Origin: Flavivirga jejuensis
Lineage (GTDB): Bacteria; Bacteroidota; Bacteroidia; Flavobacteriales; Flavobacteriaceae
Reading direction: 5' to 3'
Assembly: GCF_030540765.1 (NCBI RefSeq)
Contig: NZ_JAUOEL010000005.1
Coordinates: forward strand, 248,001-312,000
DNA: 64,000 nt
Position numbers and translations under genes: made by a program
Part shown: in pieces, positions 47,188 to 50,942 of the stretch
Numbering within the stretch: position 1 is the stretch's first letter
How the letters are laid out: every line of letters starts with the position of its first letter
Notes under the pieces: model-generated
Database searches by the model: none
What the model saw: the letters and a program-made list of their open reading frames with translations, nothing else
What the model was told of the DNA's origin: nothing

Positions 47188-47223
47188 CAAATATTATAAT
47201 GTATTACGTAGTGTTTTTGCGTA
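47188..47223 (-). promoter_or_regulatory. Regulon promoter copy 1 (upstream of rtcB)
   Basis: On the minus strand a 19-bp dyad (47205-47223, TACGCAAAAACACTACGTA) lies exactly 10 nt before ATATTTG (47188-47194), 22 bp from the rtcB ATG. The same arrangement recurs at 49344-49379 and 50907-50942. ATATTTG resembles the -7 box; the dyad sits where the -33 box would be, which fits an activator site. Confidence 0.75.
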
Positions 47224-47236
47224 GCTTGTTTTATTA

Positions 47237-47267
47237 AACATCCAAGGTTCTAAAAACCTTGGATGTT
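47237..47267 (-). terminator. Terminator after the slipin gene
   Basis: A 13-bp perfect stem AACATCCAAGGTT / AACCTTGGATGTT with a 5-nt loop lies 3 bp after the slipin stop. It isolates the tRNA-like/slipin unit from the rtcB promoter that follows. Confidence 0.8.
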
Positions 47268-47270
47268 ATT

Positions 47271-48380
47271 TTACTTATTTACAGAGAAAATATCTTTTAA
47301 TTGTTCAATAACATTGCCATTACCAGCAACGGTGATTTCACCAATTTTATCAGCGATTTTCTCAACATATTCCATCTCTTTTAATTTGAACAACATGGTG
47401 TTGTCTTCCATTAATTTTGCGGTATTCAACAAACTCCTTGTAGAAGCTGTTTCTTCTCGTCTTGTTACCACATTAGCTTGTGCTTTTTTATGAGCGATCA
47501 ATACTTGGTTCATAATGTCTTTCATATCACCAGGTAAGATCACATCTCGCATACCAGCATGCAATACATTAACACCTAATTTAGATGCTTGCCCTTTGAC
47601 ATCTTTTAAAACTGCTTCGGCAATGGTTTCTTTTTGCTCTAACAATTCATCTAATGTATAAGCACCTATAAATGCCCGCAATGCCAATTGCAATGTAATA
47701 TACAATTGCTTTTCGTAATCTTTGTTTCGCATCAAAGCTGTTTCAATATCTGTAACTTTGTATTGCGCATAAAAATTAATTCGAACAGTTGCTTTATCTT
47801 TAGTCAACAATTCCTGACCAGCAATTTCTAATTGTAGTTGACGCATATCTGCTTTGGCTATTTTAATGGTTTGATCGTTTCGCCAGAAATGGTATGTACC
47901 ATGTTCTAAGATTTTAACGAACTCATCATCAACAATCATTATCGCTTTTTCATAAGCTGCCACCTCAAATACCCGAATATATTTTGCTAATTCAGCTTTG
48001 CTATACAAGTTTTTTTTAATAGCCTCAGTAATGCTAATTTTGCTTAAATCGGCAGTAACGAATTTGTAATCGATTAAGGTGTTCCAATAGGTGTATCGAC
48101 CAGCTGTTAACACATTTTTAAAATTGTTGTTTTCATAGACTAAAACAATTTCATTATCCTTTACCTCAACAAGGGTTAAGATTGTTGCCAAAGCCTCATC
48201 TTTAAGTAAGACTTCTAATGCTTTTGGCGCGTGAAAAGGCATATTTAAAGCATACGTGCTCAGACGTTCACTAAACCTTAACCAGTGTTTTCCTTGAGTG
48301 ATGACACGTTGGTAATCACCATTTTTAAAAACTAAACCTACATTTCCTGCATGAATTCTTACTCTTTTCATTTGTTTCAT
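47271..48380 (-). CDS. Slipin (SPFH/Band 7 family) protein
   Basis: A 369-residue protein from MKQMKRVRIH (an upstream ATG at 48437 adds 19 unlikely residues). N-terminal beta modules (VRIHAGNVGLVFKNGDYQRV and two similar repeats) precede the SPFH domain (LQLEIAGQELLTKDKATVRI, then KVTDIETALMRNKDYEKQLY) and a helical tail (AHKKAQANVVTRREETASTR). It lacks an obvious N-terminal membrane helix. Slipins of this type are known next to rtcB in several bacterial RNA-repair loci. Here it follows the tRNA-like run on the same strand under the shared promoter. It probably forms oligomeric scaffolds; the exact role is unknown. Confidence 0.88.
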   Translation of the reverse strand: MKQMKRVRIHAGNVGLVFKNGDYQRVITQGKHWLRFSERLSTYALNMPFHAPKALEVLLKDEALATILTLVEVKDNEIVLVYENNNFKNVLTAGRYTYWNTLIDYKFVTADLSKISITEAIKKNLYSKAELAKYIRVFEVAAYEKAIMIVDDEFVKILEHGTYHFWRNDQTIKIAKADMRQLQLEIAGQELLTKDKATVRINFYAQYKVTDIETALMRNKDYEKQLYITLQLALRAFIGAYTLDELLEQKETIAEAVLKDVKGQASKLGVNVLHAGMRDVILPGDMKDIMNQVLIAHKKAQANVVTRREETASTRSLLNTAKLMEDNTMLFKLKEMEYVEKIADKIGEITVAGNGNVIEQLKDIFSVNK

Positions 48381-48828
48381 TTTTATTGTTAAACAATTGT
48401 CAAATGGTACATCCATTTGATGCGATGAACTAACCATTAACTTTTGATTATGGATGGTTCATGACTTCTAAATTTTTGCTCTGATGTTTTCTTTTTTTTC
48501 AGAACGATTAAACACTTATAATAGAATTCTCTTTTTTTTGAGAATGGCTATTCTTAATTAAAACAAAGCAAAAGAAAACCATCTTTCTAACGACGGAAAT
48601 ACAAGCGATTTTTAAGTGTTTTATAAATCGTTTCTATTGATGATTTATTAGTTTTGATATGTGATCTCACAAGTCTTTTTTAATAAATAAATCTTTAAAA
48701 AGGAAATACAAAATAACTTTTAATACTACTGTATCTCAAGGTGTTTTCTGGACTGCATAAACAACAGGTTGCTTTTTGCCAGTTTCATTTCACTTTGTTT
48801 TTGCCGTTTAGAGTGCGACTCACTTGGT
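48381..48828 (-). other. Leader between the tRNA-like run and the slipin gene
   Basis: About 450 nt of the presumed transcript without a gene. It includes a GAATTCTC...GAGAAT hairpin with a T-rich loop near 48526-48546 and, at 48797-48828, degenerate sequence (GTGAGTCGCACTC on the minus strand) that may be a decayed T-arm-like piece. No open frame fits a protein. Confidence 0.35.
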
Positions 48829-48884
48829 GGTCTATTTTTAAAAGTGACCTTCTTTATAAAGATGGATTTTGAGTCCATTTCAAA
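48829..48884 (-). ncRNA. Extra anticodon-arm-like hairpin and small stems in the tRNA-like run
   Basis: The minus strand reads ATGGA-CTCAAAA-TCCAT (48862-48878), a 5-bp stem with a 7-nt loop laid out like an anticodon arm (CAA at the anticodon position). It is followed by the palindrome CTTTATAAAG (48852-48861) and a GGTC/GACC stem (48829-48849). It directly follows another anticodon-arm-like hairpin, which a normal tRNA would not have; it could be an inserted arm, a variable-arm replacement or part of a second decayed tRNA. Confidence 0.4.
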
Positions 48885-48954
48885 CTGTAACCTAAATACA
48901 GCGCGTCTACCAATTTCGCCATCACGCATTTGCGTGAGTAGGATTCGAACCTAC
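48885..48954 (-). ncRNA. tRNA-Leu(UAG)-like element in circularly permuted order
   Basis: On the minus strand, 70 nt contain in order: a T arm GTAGG-TTCGAAT-CCTAC (48938-48954), acceptor strand TCACGCA, AA, acceptor strand TGCGTGA (perfect 7 bp, 48922-48937), the 2-nt linker TG, a D arm GCG-AAATTGGTAGA-CGC (48903-48919), one nt, and an anticodon arm CTGTA-TTTAGGT-TACAG (48885-48901, anticodon UAG). All arm and linker lengths equal those of a normal tRNA; only the order is permuted, with the acceptor ends joined by AA. The D arm is leucine-like. Ordinary tandem pairing of these half-stems is poor. It may be a true permuted tRNA, a tRNA mimic or fused decayed tRNAs. Confidence 0.55.
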
Positions 48955-49023
48955 ACTTTCGAAATCTATTGTTCTAACCTGACTGAACTATCTCAAATTA
49001 ATGAGAGTGGGATTCGAACCCAC
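48955..49023 (-). ncRNA. Second tRNA-like element with shared-boundary acceptor hairpin
   Basis: The minus strand reads T arm GTGGG-TTCGAAT-CCCAC (49007-49023), TCTCATT, AA, TTTGAGA (48991-49006, five pairs), linker TA, then a good D arm GTTC-AGTCAGGTTA-GAAC (48971-48988) and 16 nt (48955-48970) too short and poorly paired for a full anticodon arm. In the normal order, D arm to next T arm would make a 67-nt tRNA (48931-48997) whose acceptor pairs at only five of seven positions, one a wobble. Either reading leaves a degenerate molecule, probably not an active elongator tRNA. Confidence 0.45.
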
Positions 49024-49928: not shown

Positions 49929-50052
49929 TGTTTTTATTTTAATAATTTGTTTTTAGTGAAGTCATAATTCTGTTTTAAGAATCTAGACTCGACATTTATA
50001 ATTGAAAACTGTTTTGGAAATTGCTTAGCAGAGTTGCTAATGACTGAAAACA

Positions 50053-50090
50053 AAAAATCCGAAGCAGTTTTTAAGTTGCTTCGGATTTTT
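50053..50090. terminator. Strong bidirectional terminator
   Basis: A 14-bp stem AAAAATCCGAAGCA / TGCTTCGGATTTTT with a 10-nt loop and A/T runs on both sides. It lies downstream of the 192-aa gene on the minus strand. Confidence 0.85.
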
Positions 50091-50113
50091 CATTTATAAT
50101 TTGAAAAGTTTAT

Positions 50114-50188
50114 CTAACGATAATCACGAAGCATCACAAAAGGCGGTATCCCTTCTGGATTGTCTTGATATGAGATGAATAAACACAT
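50114..50188 (-). CDS. Possible 24-residue small protein
   Basis: An ATG-started frame encodes a 24-residue peptide beginning MCLFISYQDNPEG and ending MLRDYR, then TAG. The composition is protein-like for an AT-rich intergenic stretch, and a stop codon lies in frame a few codons upstream of the ATG. No family or clear ribosome-binding site is seen. Confidence 0.25.
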   Translation of the reverse strand: MCLFISYQDNPEGIPPFVMLRDYR

Positions 50189-50311
50189 AGCTTCGATTTT
50201 TAGTTAAACTTATTTTTTTGCTTTATTGCGATGCAAAGATTTAGATTTATTTTTGACTTTTCAAAATTTATTTTTTTATTTTCTAAAAAAATGCCCCCTT
50301 AATACGAAGTA

Positions 50312-50890
50312 TTAATTTATTTTGAAAAATGCAAGAATTTTTTGTTTTAAGGTTCTTGTTTGGTTAAAAACAGGCTCCCTAAATGGAATTAAATCTCGCG
50401 ATAAAACCTGTTTTATTTCTTCATAATCTTTACAATTTTTTGAAATACGAAGCACTTGCTCTGAGTAAAATTTAGCTTCTTTTTCAAAAGAATATTTGTT
50501 AAACATACTGCCTTCAAATGACTCATAATACTTATAAAGAGAATAAAATTTCCAAAGAATGTCAAAGTTTGTGTCATAATCAAAATCCCTTATTAATTCG
50601 GATAGAATTTGATAGACTTGGTATGGTGTTTTTGATTGACATATTTGTAAACATCCTTTTTCTATTTTTAAAATTATAAGATAATCTTCACTGTATTTTT
50701 CTTTAATTAGATTGTTTAGTTGTTTTAACCATTCTTCGTTTTTGTAATTGATTGAAATTAGATCAAAATAGTATGGATTACTATTGAGGTTTTCAATAAT
50801 TTCTTCTGAATTATACAACCAGTTTTCAAATTCTGAAACAGTTATCTTTTCAATTAATACATCGAATATTTTAAGTTTTAGCACTTCCAT
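50312..50890 (-). CDS. Unknown protein under the shared regulon promoter
   Basis: A 192-residue acidic, mostly helical protein rich in Tyr, Phe and Trp (FENWLYNSEEIIENLNSNPY, then LIRDFDYDTNFDILWKFYSL), with no signal peptide or membrane helix. I do not recognise the family; size and composition are like many immunity-type or HEAT-like small proteins, but no motif proves this. Its promoter carries the third copy of the 19-bp dyad with ATATTTG, 17 nt before the ATG. It is divergent from the CAP-WYL operon. Confidence 0.75.
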   Translation of the reverse strand: MEVLKLKIFDVLIEKITVSEFENWLYNSEEIIENLNSNPYYFDLISINYKNEEWLKQLNNLIKEKYSEDYLIILKIEKGCLQICQSKTPYQVYQILSELIRDFDYDTNFDILWKFYSLYKYYESFEGSMFNKYSFEKEAKFYSEQVLRISKNCKDYEEIKQVLSRDLIPFREPVFNQTRTLKQKILAFFKIN

Positions 50891-50906
50891 TATTTTGTCT
50901 TTTAAA

Positions 50907-50942
50907 CAAATATTTCATGTTGGTACGCAGTCTTTTTGCGTA
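50907..50942 (-). promoter_or_regulatory. Regulon promoter copy 3 (between the 192-aa gene and the CAP-WYL operon)
   Basis: On the minus strand TACGCAAAAAGACTGCGTA (50924-50942) lies exactly 10 nt before ATATTTG (50907-50913). The dyad also lies 33 bp before the divergent CAP gene: on the plus strand TTTTTG (50933-50938) and TAATTTTA (50957-50964) are 18 bp apart and could be a weak plus promoter overlapped by the dyad. One bound factor could thus control both directions and autoregulate the WYL gene. Confidence 0.75.

Follow-up and report, generated by a model that had tools for sequence, protein, structure and literature searches.

In a 64,000-nucleotide stretch of the genome of Flavivirga jejuensis (contig NZ_JAUOEL010000005.1, positions 248,001 to 312,000; hereafter the window, from whose first letter all positions are counted), we detected three minus-strand promoters that share a 19-bp dyad of the type TACGCA-N7-TGCGTA, followed by exactly 10 nt and the box ATATTTG (47223-47188, 49379-49344 and 50942-50907). 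They stand before the gene of the RNA ligase RtcB, before a unit of tRNA-like elements and a slipin gene, and before the gene of a 192-aa protein (u192). These dyads, their neighbours and their co-occurrence with a WYL protein encoded nearby point to a response to RNA damage that, as far as we could find, is undescribed. We consider it probable that the dyads are the sites of this WYL protein (53283-55004), which would activate an RNA-repair regulon upon RNA damage in the manner of DriD and PafBC; the protein as binder, the activation and RNA damage as the signal are all inferred from sequence comparisons. The features concerned are:

47205..47223, minus strand: dyad TACGCAAAAACACTACGTA of the rtcB promoter (letters read; window and genome search)
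47188..47194, minus strand: -7 box ATATTTG of the rtcB promoter (consensus TAHHTTTG from PMC6847099)
49361..49379, minus strand: dyad TACGCAGAAACATTGCGCA of the tRNA-like/slipin promoter (letters read; window and genome search)
49344..49350, minus strand: -7 box ATATTTG of the tRNA-like/slipin promoter (letters read)
50924..50942, minus strand: palindromic dyad TACGCAAAAAGACTGCGTA between u192 and the CAP-WYL genes (letters read; window and genome search)
50907..50913, minus strand: -7 box ATATTTG of the u192 promoter (letters read)
45768..47165, minus strand: RtcB RNA ligase, regulon gene (PF01139; downstream of 22 of the 49 family sites)
47271..48383, minus strand: slipin, a SPFH/Band 7 protein, regulon gene (PF01145)
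50312..50890, minus strand: u192, helical protein of 192 aa, recurrent regulon member (recurrence at the loci of relatives)
50975..53278, plus strand: CAP-domain protein, encoded first in the divergent unit (PF00188; present in some relatives only)
53283..55004, plus strand: HTH-WYL-WCX-PhyH protein, proposed dyad-binding regulator (PF13280, PF25583, PF05721; co-occurrence)

The palindromic dyad TACGCAAAAAGACTGCGTA may serve both u192 and the CAP-WYL genes. A preliminary description, made from the letters of this DNA, had reported the three dyads and their distance to ATATTTG, and its letters and coordinates were exact on re-reading. The gene names that it gave are borne out by Pfam (RtcB, Band_7/slipin, a 192-aa protein without Pfam match, and CAP followed by HTH-WYL-WCX-PhyH). 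It had also seen no fourth copy in the window, and indeed a search with up to 3 mismatches returned only these three dyads (mean 0.00 in 100 shuffles). At the same limit the whole genome (6,017,851 bases) gave four matches, the three dyads and one on contig C12 with 3 mismatches that is no better than background (reversed pattern: 2 genome-wide), and no fourth good copy was found in these 6.0 Mb.

We searched 299 sampled genomes of the family for TACGCA-N7-TGCGTA-N10-ANATTTG with at most 1 mismatch, using the reversed pattern as control. The signal is present in 27 genomes at 49 places (control: 5), all of which were classed by hand (47 sites plus 2 sites of locus L182). A regulon gene adjoins 45 of the 49, namely RtcB, the tRNA-slipin unit, a spare tRNA array, RlaP, Hen1-Pnkp, u192 or WYL; scatter over unrelated genes, which the preliminary description had named as an outcome that would speak against a regulon, was thus not observed. 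The first unit 3' of the site is RtcB in 22 cases (some reached via a small open reading frame (ORF) or tRNAs, and one a paralogous RtcB), the slipin leader in 10, RlaP in 4, a spare tRNA array and u192 in 3 each, and Hen1-Pnkp and WYL in 1 each; one further site, counted among the 45, stands before a TPR gene that is divergent from WYL by 41 bp. The four sites without an assigned regulon gene are a poor one in genome G196, one at a contig end just past a Ro60 gene (L012), one before a leader RNA with the leader hairpin and without slipin downstream (L184:15650), and site 8013 of L189, from the genus of the window, where a 624-aa protein without Pfam match (8457-10328, plus strand) lies behind dyad and hairpin in place of the tRNA-slipin unit. 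The protein families identified at these loci are RlaP (PF10127), TROVE/vWA_Ro60, Hen1_L (PF12623), the PNKP ligase (PF16542) and PrfH (TIGR03072).

A second collection was anchored on slipin and comprised the best 80 of at least 554 loci of relatives, together with the window (81 stretches); it shares records with the family sample and is not independent of it (L042/G045, L046/G282, L047/G173, L096/G120, L109/G079 and L113/G177). A weight matrix, whose 86 unique training sites came from the loci that it then scanned, found 115 sites at a score of at least 18 and none in the reversed sequence. The first ORF 3' of these sites encodes slipin (41), RtcB (30), u192 (9), WYL or CAP (6) or RlaP (3), and the remaining 26 have another ORF or none, several being short frames inside the slipin leader. 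All 29 WYL-containing stretches have a site at up to 3 mismatches. Another 28 of the 81 have no site; WYL is found in none of these 28 and RtcB in one (L063), so slipin-tRNA units outside dyad control exist. Slipin units with tRNA arrays and with no dyad, WYL or RtcB in the stretch occur in L057, L058, L061, L065, L071, L089, L092 and others, and form a second class under some other control.

Across 395 genomes of the class, the signal was found at 28 places in 21 genomes (control: 0); three of the places are in the genome of the window, and 21 of the other 25 lie in the 19 new loci that we inspected. The regulon is recognizable at nine of these loci, with the dyad between WYL and RtcB (L148, L151, L156), between WYL and slipin (L150), between WYL and u192-Hen1 (L149), at WYL, u192 and RtcB (L157), before slipin (L154, L158) or at a distant WYL of 31% identity (L147). 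The other ten have no regulon gene (L144-146, L152, L153, L155, L159-162). At one of these, in a more distant Bacteroidia genome (L160:1501-1536), a good, symmetric dyad flanked on either side by -7 boxes lies between two divergent genes, which encode an AAA ATPase and a 369-aa protein that has no Pfam match.

Among DNA-binding proteins it is the WYL protein that follows the motif, with one exception, genome G195. Its ortholog (query residues 1-336) was identified in 39 of the 299 family genomes, at 48% identity or more and at least 338 bits, with the next best matches at 231 bits or less. Motif and ortholog are found together in 25 genomes, the motif alone in 2, the ortholog alone in 14 and neither in 258, counts for which a Fisher value overstates independence because the genomes share ancestry. 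Genomes that have only distant WYL paralogs lack the motif (0 of 19). Window-type RtcB is present in 36 genomes, and all 33 that combine it with the WYL ortholog have dyad promoters, so the loss of the motif in relatives that would have spoken against the regulon was not seen either. Nine of the 14 WYL-only genomes have window-type RtcB, and a relaxed pattern placed the dyad before rtcB in all nine; the spacer is 11 nt in four of these. The remaining five WYL-only genomes (G033, G127, G128, G252, G259) have 1 to 7 sites at up to 2 mismatches (controls: 0 or 1), a looser limit than in the family count, at which some matches are chance. Around rtcB in the three RtcB genomes without WYL ortholog (G016, G041, G097) no dyad was detected, yet the RtcB of G097 is 82% identical to that of the window; genome-wide, up to 2 mismatches gave no site in G097 and G016 and two poor ones in G041. 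G248, of the genus of the window, lacks both the motif and a WYL ortholog, and RtcB was not found in it at E 1e-80.

Sites also occur unlinked to WYL. In G033 and G259 the ortholog lies on contig C30 or C2 and the sites on other contigs, before Hen1 (both genomes), slipin (G033) and an RtcB paralog (G259), and in G176 the RtcB site is on C9 and WYL on C13. Of 62 unique regions upstream of WYL itself, 40 contain the dyad, which in 32 cases lies 56-62 bp before the start codon. The box on the WYL side often reads TTTA instead of TTTG, which makes this target less sure than the others; judged from these upstream regions, the gene likely regulates itself.

The WYL protein has both domains of such regulators, with PF13280 at 42.9 bits (cut-off 21.8) and PF25583 at 30.7 bits (cut-off 23.9), and its predicted model, of low confidence, shows N-terminal helices and a wing. 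The recognition-helix stretch VSKRT is invariant in 23 orthologs. A single sequence gave no match in PDB; the profile of the 23 orthologs, by comparison, retrieved DriD (8tp8, 1.1e-6) and PafBC (7p5x, 7.6e-6), in agreement with Foldseek on the low-confidence model. PafBC requires a pair of arginines three residues apart for binding single-stranded DNA (ssDNA) (PMC11804915). In the window protein, residues ~211-217 hold LALDR, where DriD (WRLDR) and PafBC have Arg in the aligned stretch; Ala214 is found in 23 of 23 orthologs and Arg three residues before it in none, the mapping to PafB R211/R214 being drawn from spacing. The ssDNA-binding arginines seem to be lost in this domain, which may mean another ligand. 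In the lineage of the window the regulator carries a fused PhyH-type dioxygenase domain, which is missing from many orthologs. The same motif is found in many relatives whose WYL protein, of ~336 aa, stands alone, so neither the PhyH part nor the CAP gene is needed; of the WYL-PhyH protein that the preliminary description had suggested as binder, the WYL part is the one that goes with the motif, save in G195.

Several observations weigh against the WYL protein as the binder of the dyads. G195 has a perfect site before Hen1-Pnkp, but at E 1e-8 the WYL ortholog is missing from this genome, whose single PF13280 protein is shorter and encoded elsewhere, and G196 has its poor site and likewise no ortholog. 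By pattern, 22 of the 62 WYL upstream regions lack the dyad, partly as another gene precedes. No regulon gene adjoins three of the five sites examined in G033 and three of the five examined, of seven in all, in G259, and the co-occurrence of motif and WYL is partly shared ancestry. The model of the protein is poor (predicted local distance difference test score 66), and its fold matches have low template modelling scores.

How the dyad would act may be read from its position. In Flavobacterium johnsoniae the -7 box is numbered T-12 A-11 H H T-8 T-7 T-6 G-5 (PMC6847099), and on this scale the dyad spans -40 to -22 with its centre at -31, which places it over the -35/-33 region and with a fixed gap to the -10/-7 box. 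The dyad had been proposed to replace the -33 box; the box itself is weak in Flavobacterium (PMC6847099), and TTTG or TTG 15-25 nt before the -7 box was found at none of 86 sites, an element weak in flavobacteria anyway. The evidence for spacing is the offset count in the slipin-anchored loci, where A..TTTG starts at offset 11 in 81 of 186 strand-counted dyads (next offset, 4; random, ~0.2%), the pool of 86 sites having been partly gathered at fixed spacing. The 10-nt spacer reported for the window is exact there and becomes 11 nt in some relatives. The -7 box takes the form xAnnTTTG, with T-12 in 7% of the 86 sites. At promoters under DriD the site overlaps the -35 and keeps a single distance to the -10; the promoter of driD itself is bidirectional (preprint PMC12340889). 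Because this layout of a weak core and a dyad at a set distance recurs here, and because the profile matches DriD and PafBC, an activator rather than a repressor is supported.

BrxR and CapW, which are WYL repressors, are among the fold matches of the model, and the dyad overlaps the promoter. The WYL protein might then cover the promoter and be released on RNA damage, a repressor like TrcR, which represses a similar set of genes, rtcB-tRNA-slipin, in Anabaena (PMC10272220). We regard such repression as improbable, since a repressor needs neither one helical phase nor a near-fixed distance of 10 nt, and a -7 box without T-12 looks like a weak core promoter on its own. Slightly less probable still is that another DNA-binding protein reads the dyad, with the WYL gene a member of the regulon and not its master; the perfect site of G195 would suit it, but WYL is present in 25 of the 27 motif genomes, no other DNA-binding family occurs at the loci scanned, and CAP and u192 are absent from many of them. 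For the same reason the CAP protein was rejected as regulator, as was u192, which in addition has no Pfam match. A dedicated sigma factor, offered in the preliminary description alongside an activator, would explain the near-fixed spacing by reading the dyad and -7 box as two promoter elements; it is very improbable, as the upstream part, which lies between divergent genes, has the two-fold symmetry of a palindrome and fits a dimer, the downstream part still reads the housekeeping AnnTTTG, and the proteins scanned, a part of the neighbours, included no sigma gene. Finally, that there is no regulon and the three copies within 4 kb are one duplicated promoter or chance is for practical purposes refuted, chance by the shuffles, the reversed-pattern controls and the counts (49 places in 299 genomes versus 5, and 28 in 395 versus 0), and a recent duplication by sites that recur on other contigs (G033, G259, G176) and in other families of the class.

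Under the activation by WYL that we favour, an HTH-WYL-WCX dimer would sit at about -40 to -22 of the target promoters and bring the housekeeping RNA polymerase to promoters without T-12, as DriD and PafBC, the nearest relatives that have been characterised, do. Sensing of RNA damage would then turn on RtcB, the tRNA-like/slipin unit, u192 and probably the WYL gene itself, and in relatives the same switch would also cover spare tRNA arrays, RlaP and Hen1-Pnkp. The earlier interpretation is thus partly supported: its main line of a regulon, an activator and the WYL protein appears right, and the sigma factor is unsupported. Its assignment of all genes between 45.5 and 55 kb to one regulon holds for RtcB (and, by position only, the 74-aa gene that follows it), the tRNA-like/slipin unit and u192, and less surely for CAP-WYL. 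It is too broad for the stretch as a whole; the TPR gene (49392-49928) has no dyad site of its own.

The transcripts share a further element, a hairpin with the head GTAG[TC] that lies 3' of many dyad promoters at a near-constant distance. A strict pattern matched 49 times in the 81 slipin-anchored sequences (22 in reversed sequence); around the 115 sites, 38 of its matches lay 50-150 nt after the start of the dyad, and a single one in the remaining 50-nt bins between -400 and 600. A loose pattern gave 99 matches versus 90 reversed, so the case rests on position and covariation: an alignment of 32 copies, taken from the leaders of slipin and rtcB, shows compensatory changes at 9 of 10 pairs. 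A covariance model, built from sites that it then finds and scoring 150 candidates per genome, yielded 11 matches in 25 genomes. They fall in 9 of the 12 genomes that have the WYL ortholog and in none of the 13 that lack it, and all begin 60-80 nt after the dyad start. Several loops hold GGA, and no Rfam family matched the hairpin above cut-off. The window holds one copy, in the slipin leader; at ~20 nt, the leaders of rtcB and u192 cannot accommodate it. A bolder extension, for which we see somewhat less than an even chance, is that the WYL protein senses broken RNA directly, with ligands such as tRNA fragments with cyclic-phosphate or 5'-OH ends, and runs a Bacteroidia-wide RNA-repair response in which the 5' hairpin is a second, RNA-level control; it would then correspond, for RNA damage, to DriD and PafBC, which sense ssDNA, and would have lost their arginines.

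The remaining features of the locus are:

45477..45701, minus strand: 74-aa basic protein 3' of rtcB (position)
49159..49242, minus strand: tRNA-Tyr(gta)-like element in the slipin leader (ARAGORN; Rfam RF00005, 56.6 bits)
48930..48997, minus strand: second tRNA-like element in the slipin leader (Rfam RF00005, 33.1 bits)
49269..49302, minus strand: 5' leader hairpin (covariance-model match with flanks 49245-49312)

The 74-aa protein has no match in Pfam or NCBIfam and, judged by position, is probably cotranscribed with rtcB. For u192 there was no Pfam match and nothing at E 0.001 or better in a fold search. The CAP gene is followed by the WYL gene after 4 nt. The Rfam scan of the window returned tRNA as the only family above cut-off; a match to YrlA (Y RNA-like) in the slipin leader (48962-49035, minus strand) is below threshold (33.5 bits, cut-off 69) and may reflect just its tRNA-like fold. 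PADLOC gave generic WYL and Cas3c-profile matches for the WYL protein and a weak mads_2 match for Hen1, and an identity of the locus as a defence system was rejected on these generic or weak matches.

Spare arrays of up to 17 tRNAs lie 5' of slipin in many relatives (e.g. L035, L037, L184, L185, L187, L182), some with a dyad promoter in front; the window keeps a single tRNA-Tyr along with degenerate remnants that resemble tRNAs. In many relatives (L009, L011 and L182-L187) the tRNA array adjoins another type of RtcB, which is accompanied by PrfH (TIGR03072) and a TPR protein and resembles the reported RtcB2-PrfH pair of Escherichia coli. A Ro60-like TROVE/vWA protein behind a dyad promoter (L109:6780-8303, plus strand; a metagenome-assembled genome of Flavobacteriaceae) recalls Salmonella rsr. 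DUF6331 proteins recur directly 3' of dyad promoters, before slipin or RtcB (L045:7313-7618, L068, L072, L184:5030-5338).

How RNA repair is switched in bacteria that do not use RtcR is an open question, and the literature searched, which covered few subscription papers, describes no RNA-repair regulator for Bacteroidota and no WYL-controlled RNA-repair regulon. Our results give a candidate regulator, a DNA site and a target list (RtcB, RlaP, Hen1-Pnkp, spare tRNA arrays, slipin and u192); the site can be used for finding further RNA-repair genes, and the WYL domain is a candidate RNA-damage sensor.

Dedicated control of rtcB is known from RtcR and the Salmonella rsr-yrlBA-rtcBA operon, where damaged tRNA is the signal and which includes the Ro60 protein Rsr (PMC7790460); a Ro60 gene likewise stands behind a dyad in L109. 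RtcR is a CARF-type sigma-54 activator, unlike the WYL protein on promoters of the -7 type (PMC7790460); no CARF and sigma-54 activator and no RtcA was found among ten window proteins (45477-56341), nor RtcA among the genes scanned, and no genome-wide search for RtcR was made. In Anabaena, TrcR likewise governs rtcB together with a long operon of spare tRNAs and the slipin gene alr0740, and it differs as a ribbon-helix-helix repressor with its own 18-bp motif overlapping the -10 (PMC10272220); the regulator linked to our motif is a WYL protein, in a genome not searched for a TrcR homolog or motif. With DriD of Caulobacter crescentus (PDB 8tp8, 8tpk, 9pfq, 9pfv) the protein shares the HTH-WYL-WCX architecture, and the two systems have in common weak core promoters, a site that overlaps the -35 and keeps one distance to the -10, and a bidirectional promoter adjoining the regulator's own gene (PMC12340889); DriD serves the DNA-damage response and binds ssDNA, whereas the targets here are for RNA repair, and its WRLDR has Arg where the window protein has Ala. 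Mycobacterial PafBC is likewise a WYL activator, through which the housekeeping polymerase can, by sigma adaptation, work at promoters that have no normal -35; it differs in being a heterodimer with a -26 motif that is activated by ssDNA and not by single-stranded RNA (PMC11804915), and its arginine pair appears, from the aligned spacing, to be absent from our protein. The system thus works like those of RtcR and TrcR, with one regulator over RtcB, tRNAs and slipin, but its regulator is a WYL protein, a family member that resembles DriD and PafBC and lacks their arginines.

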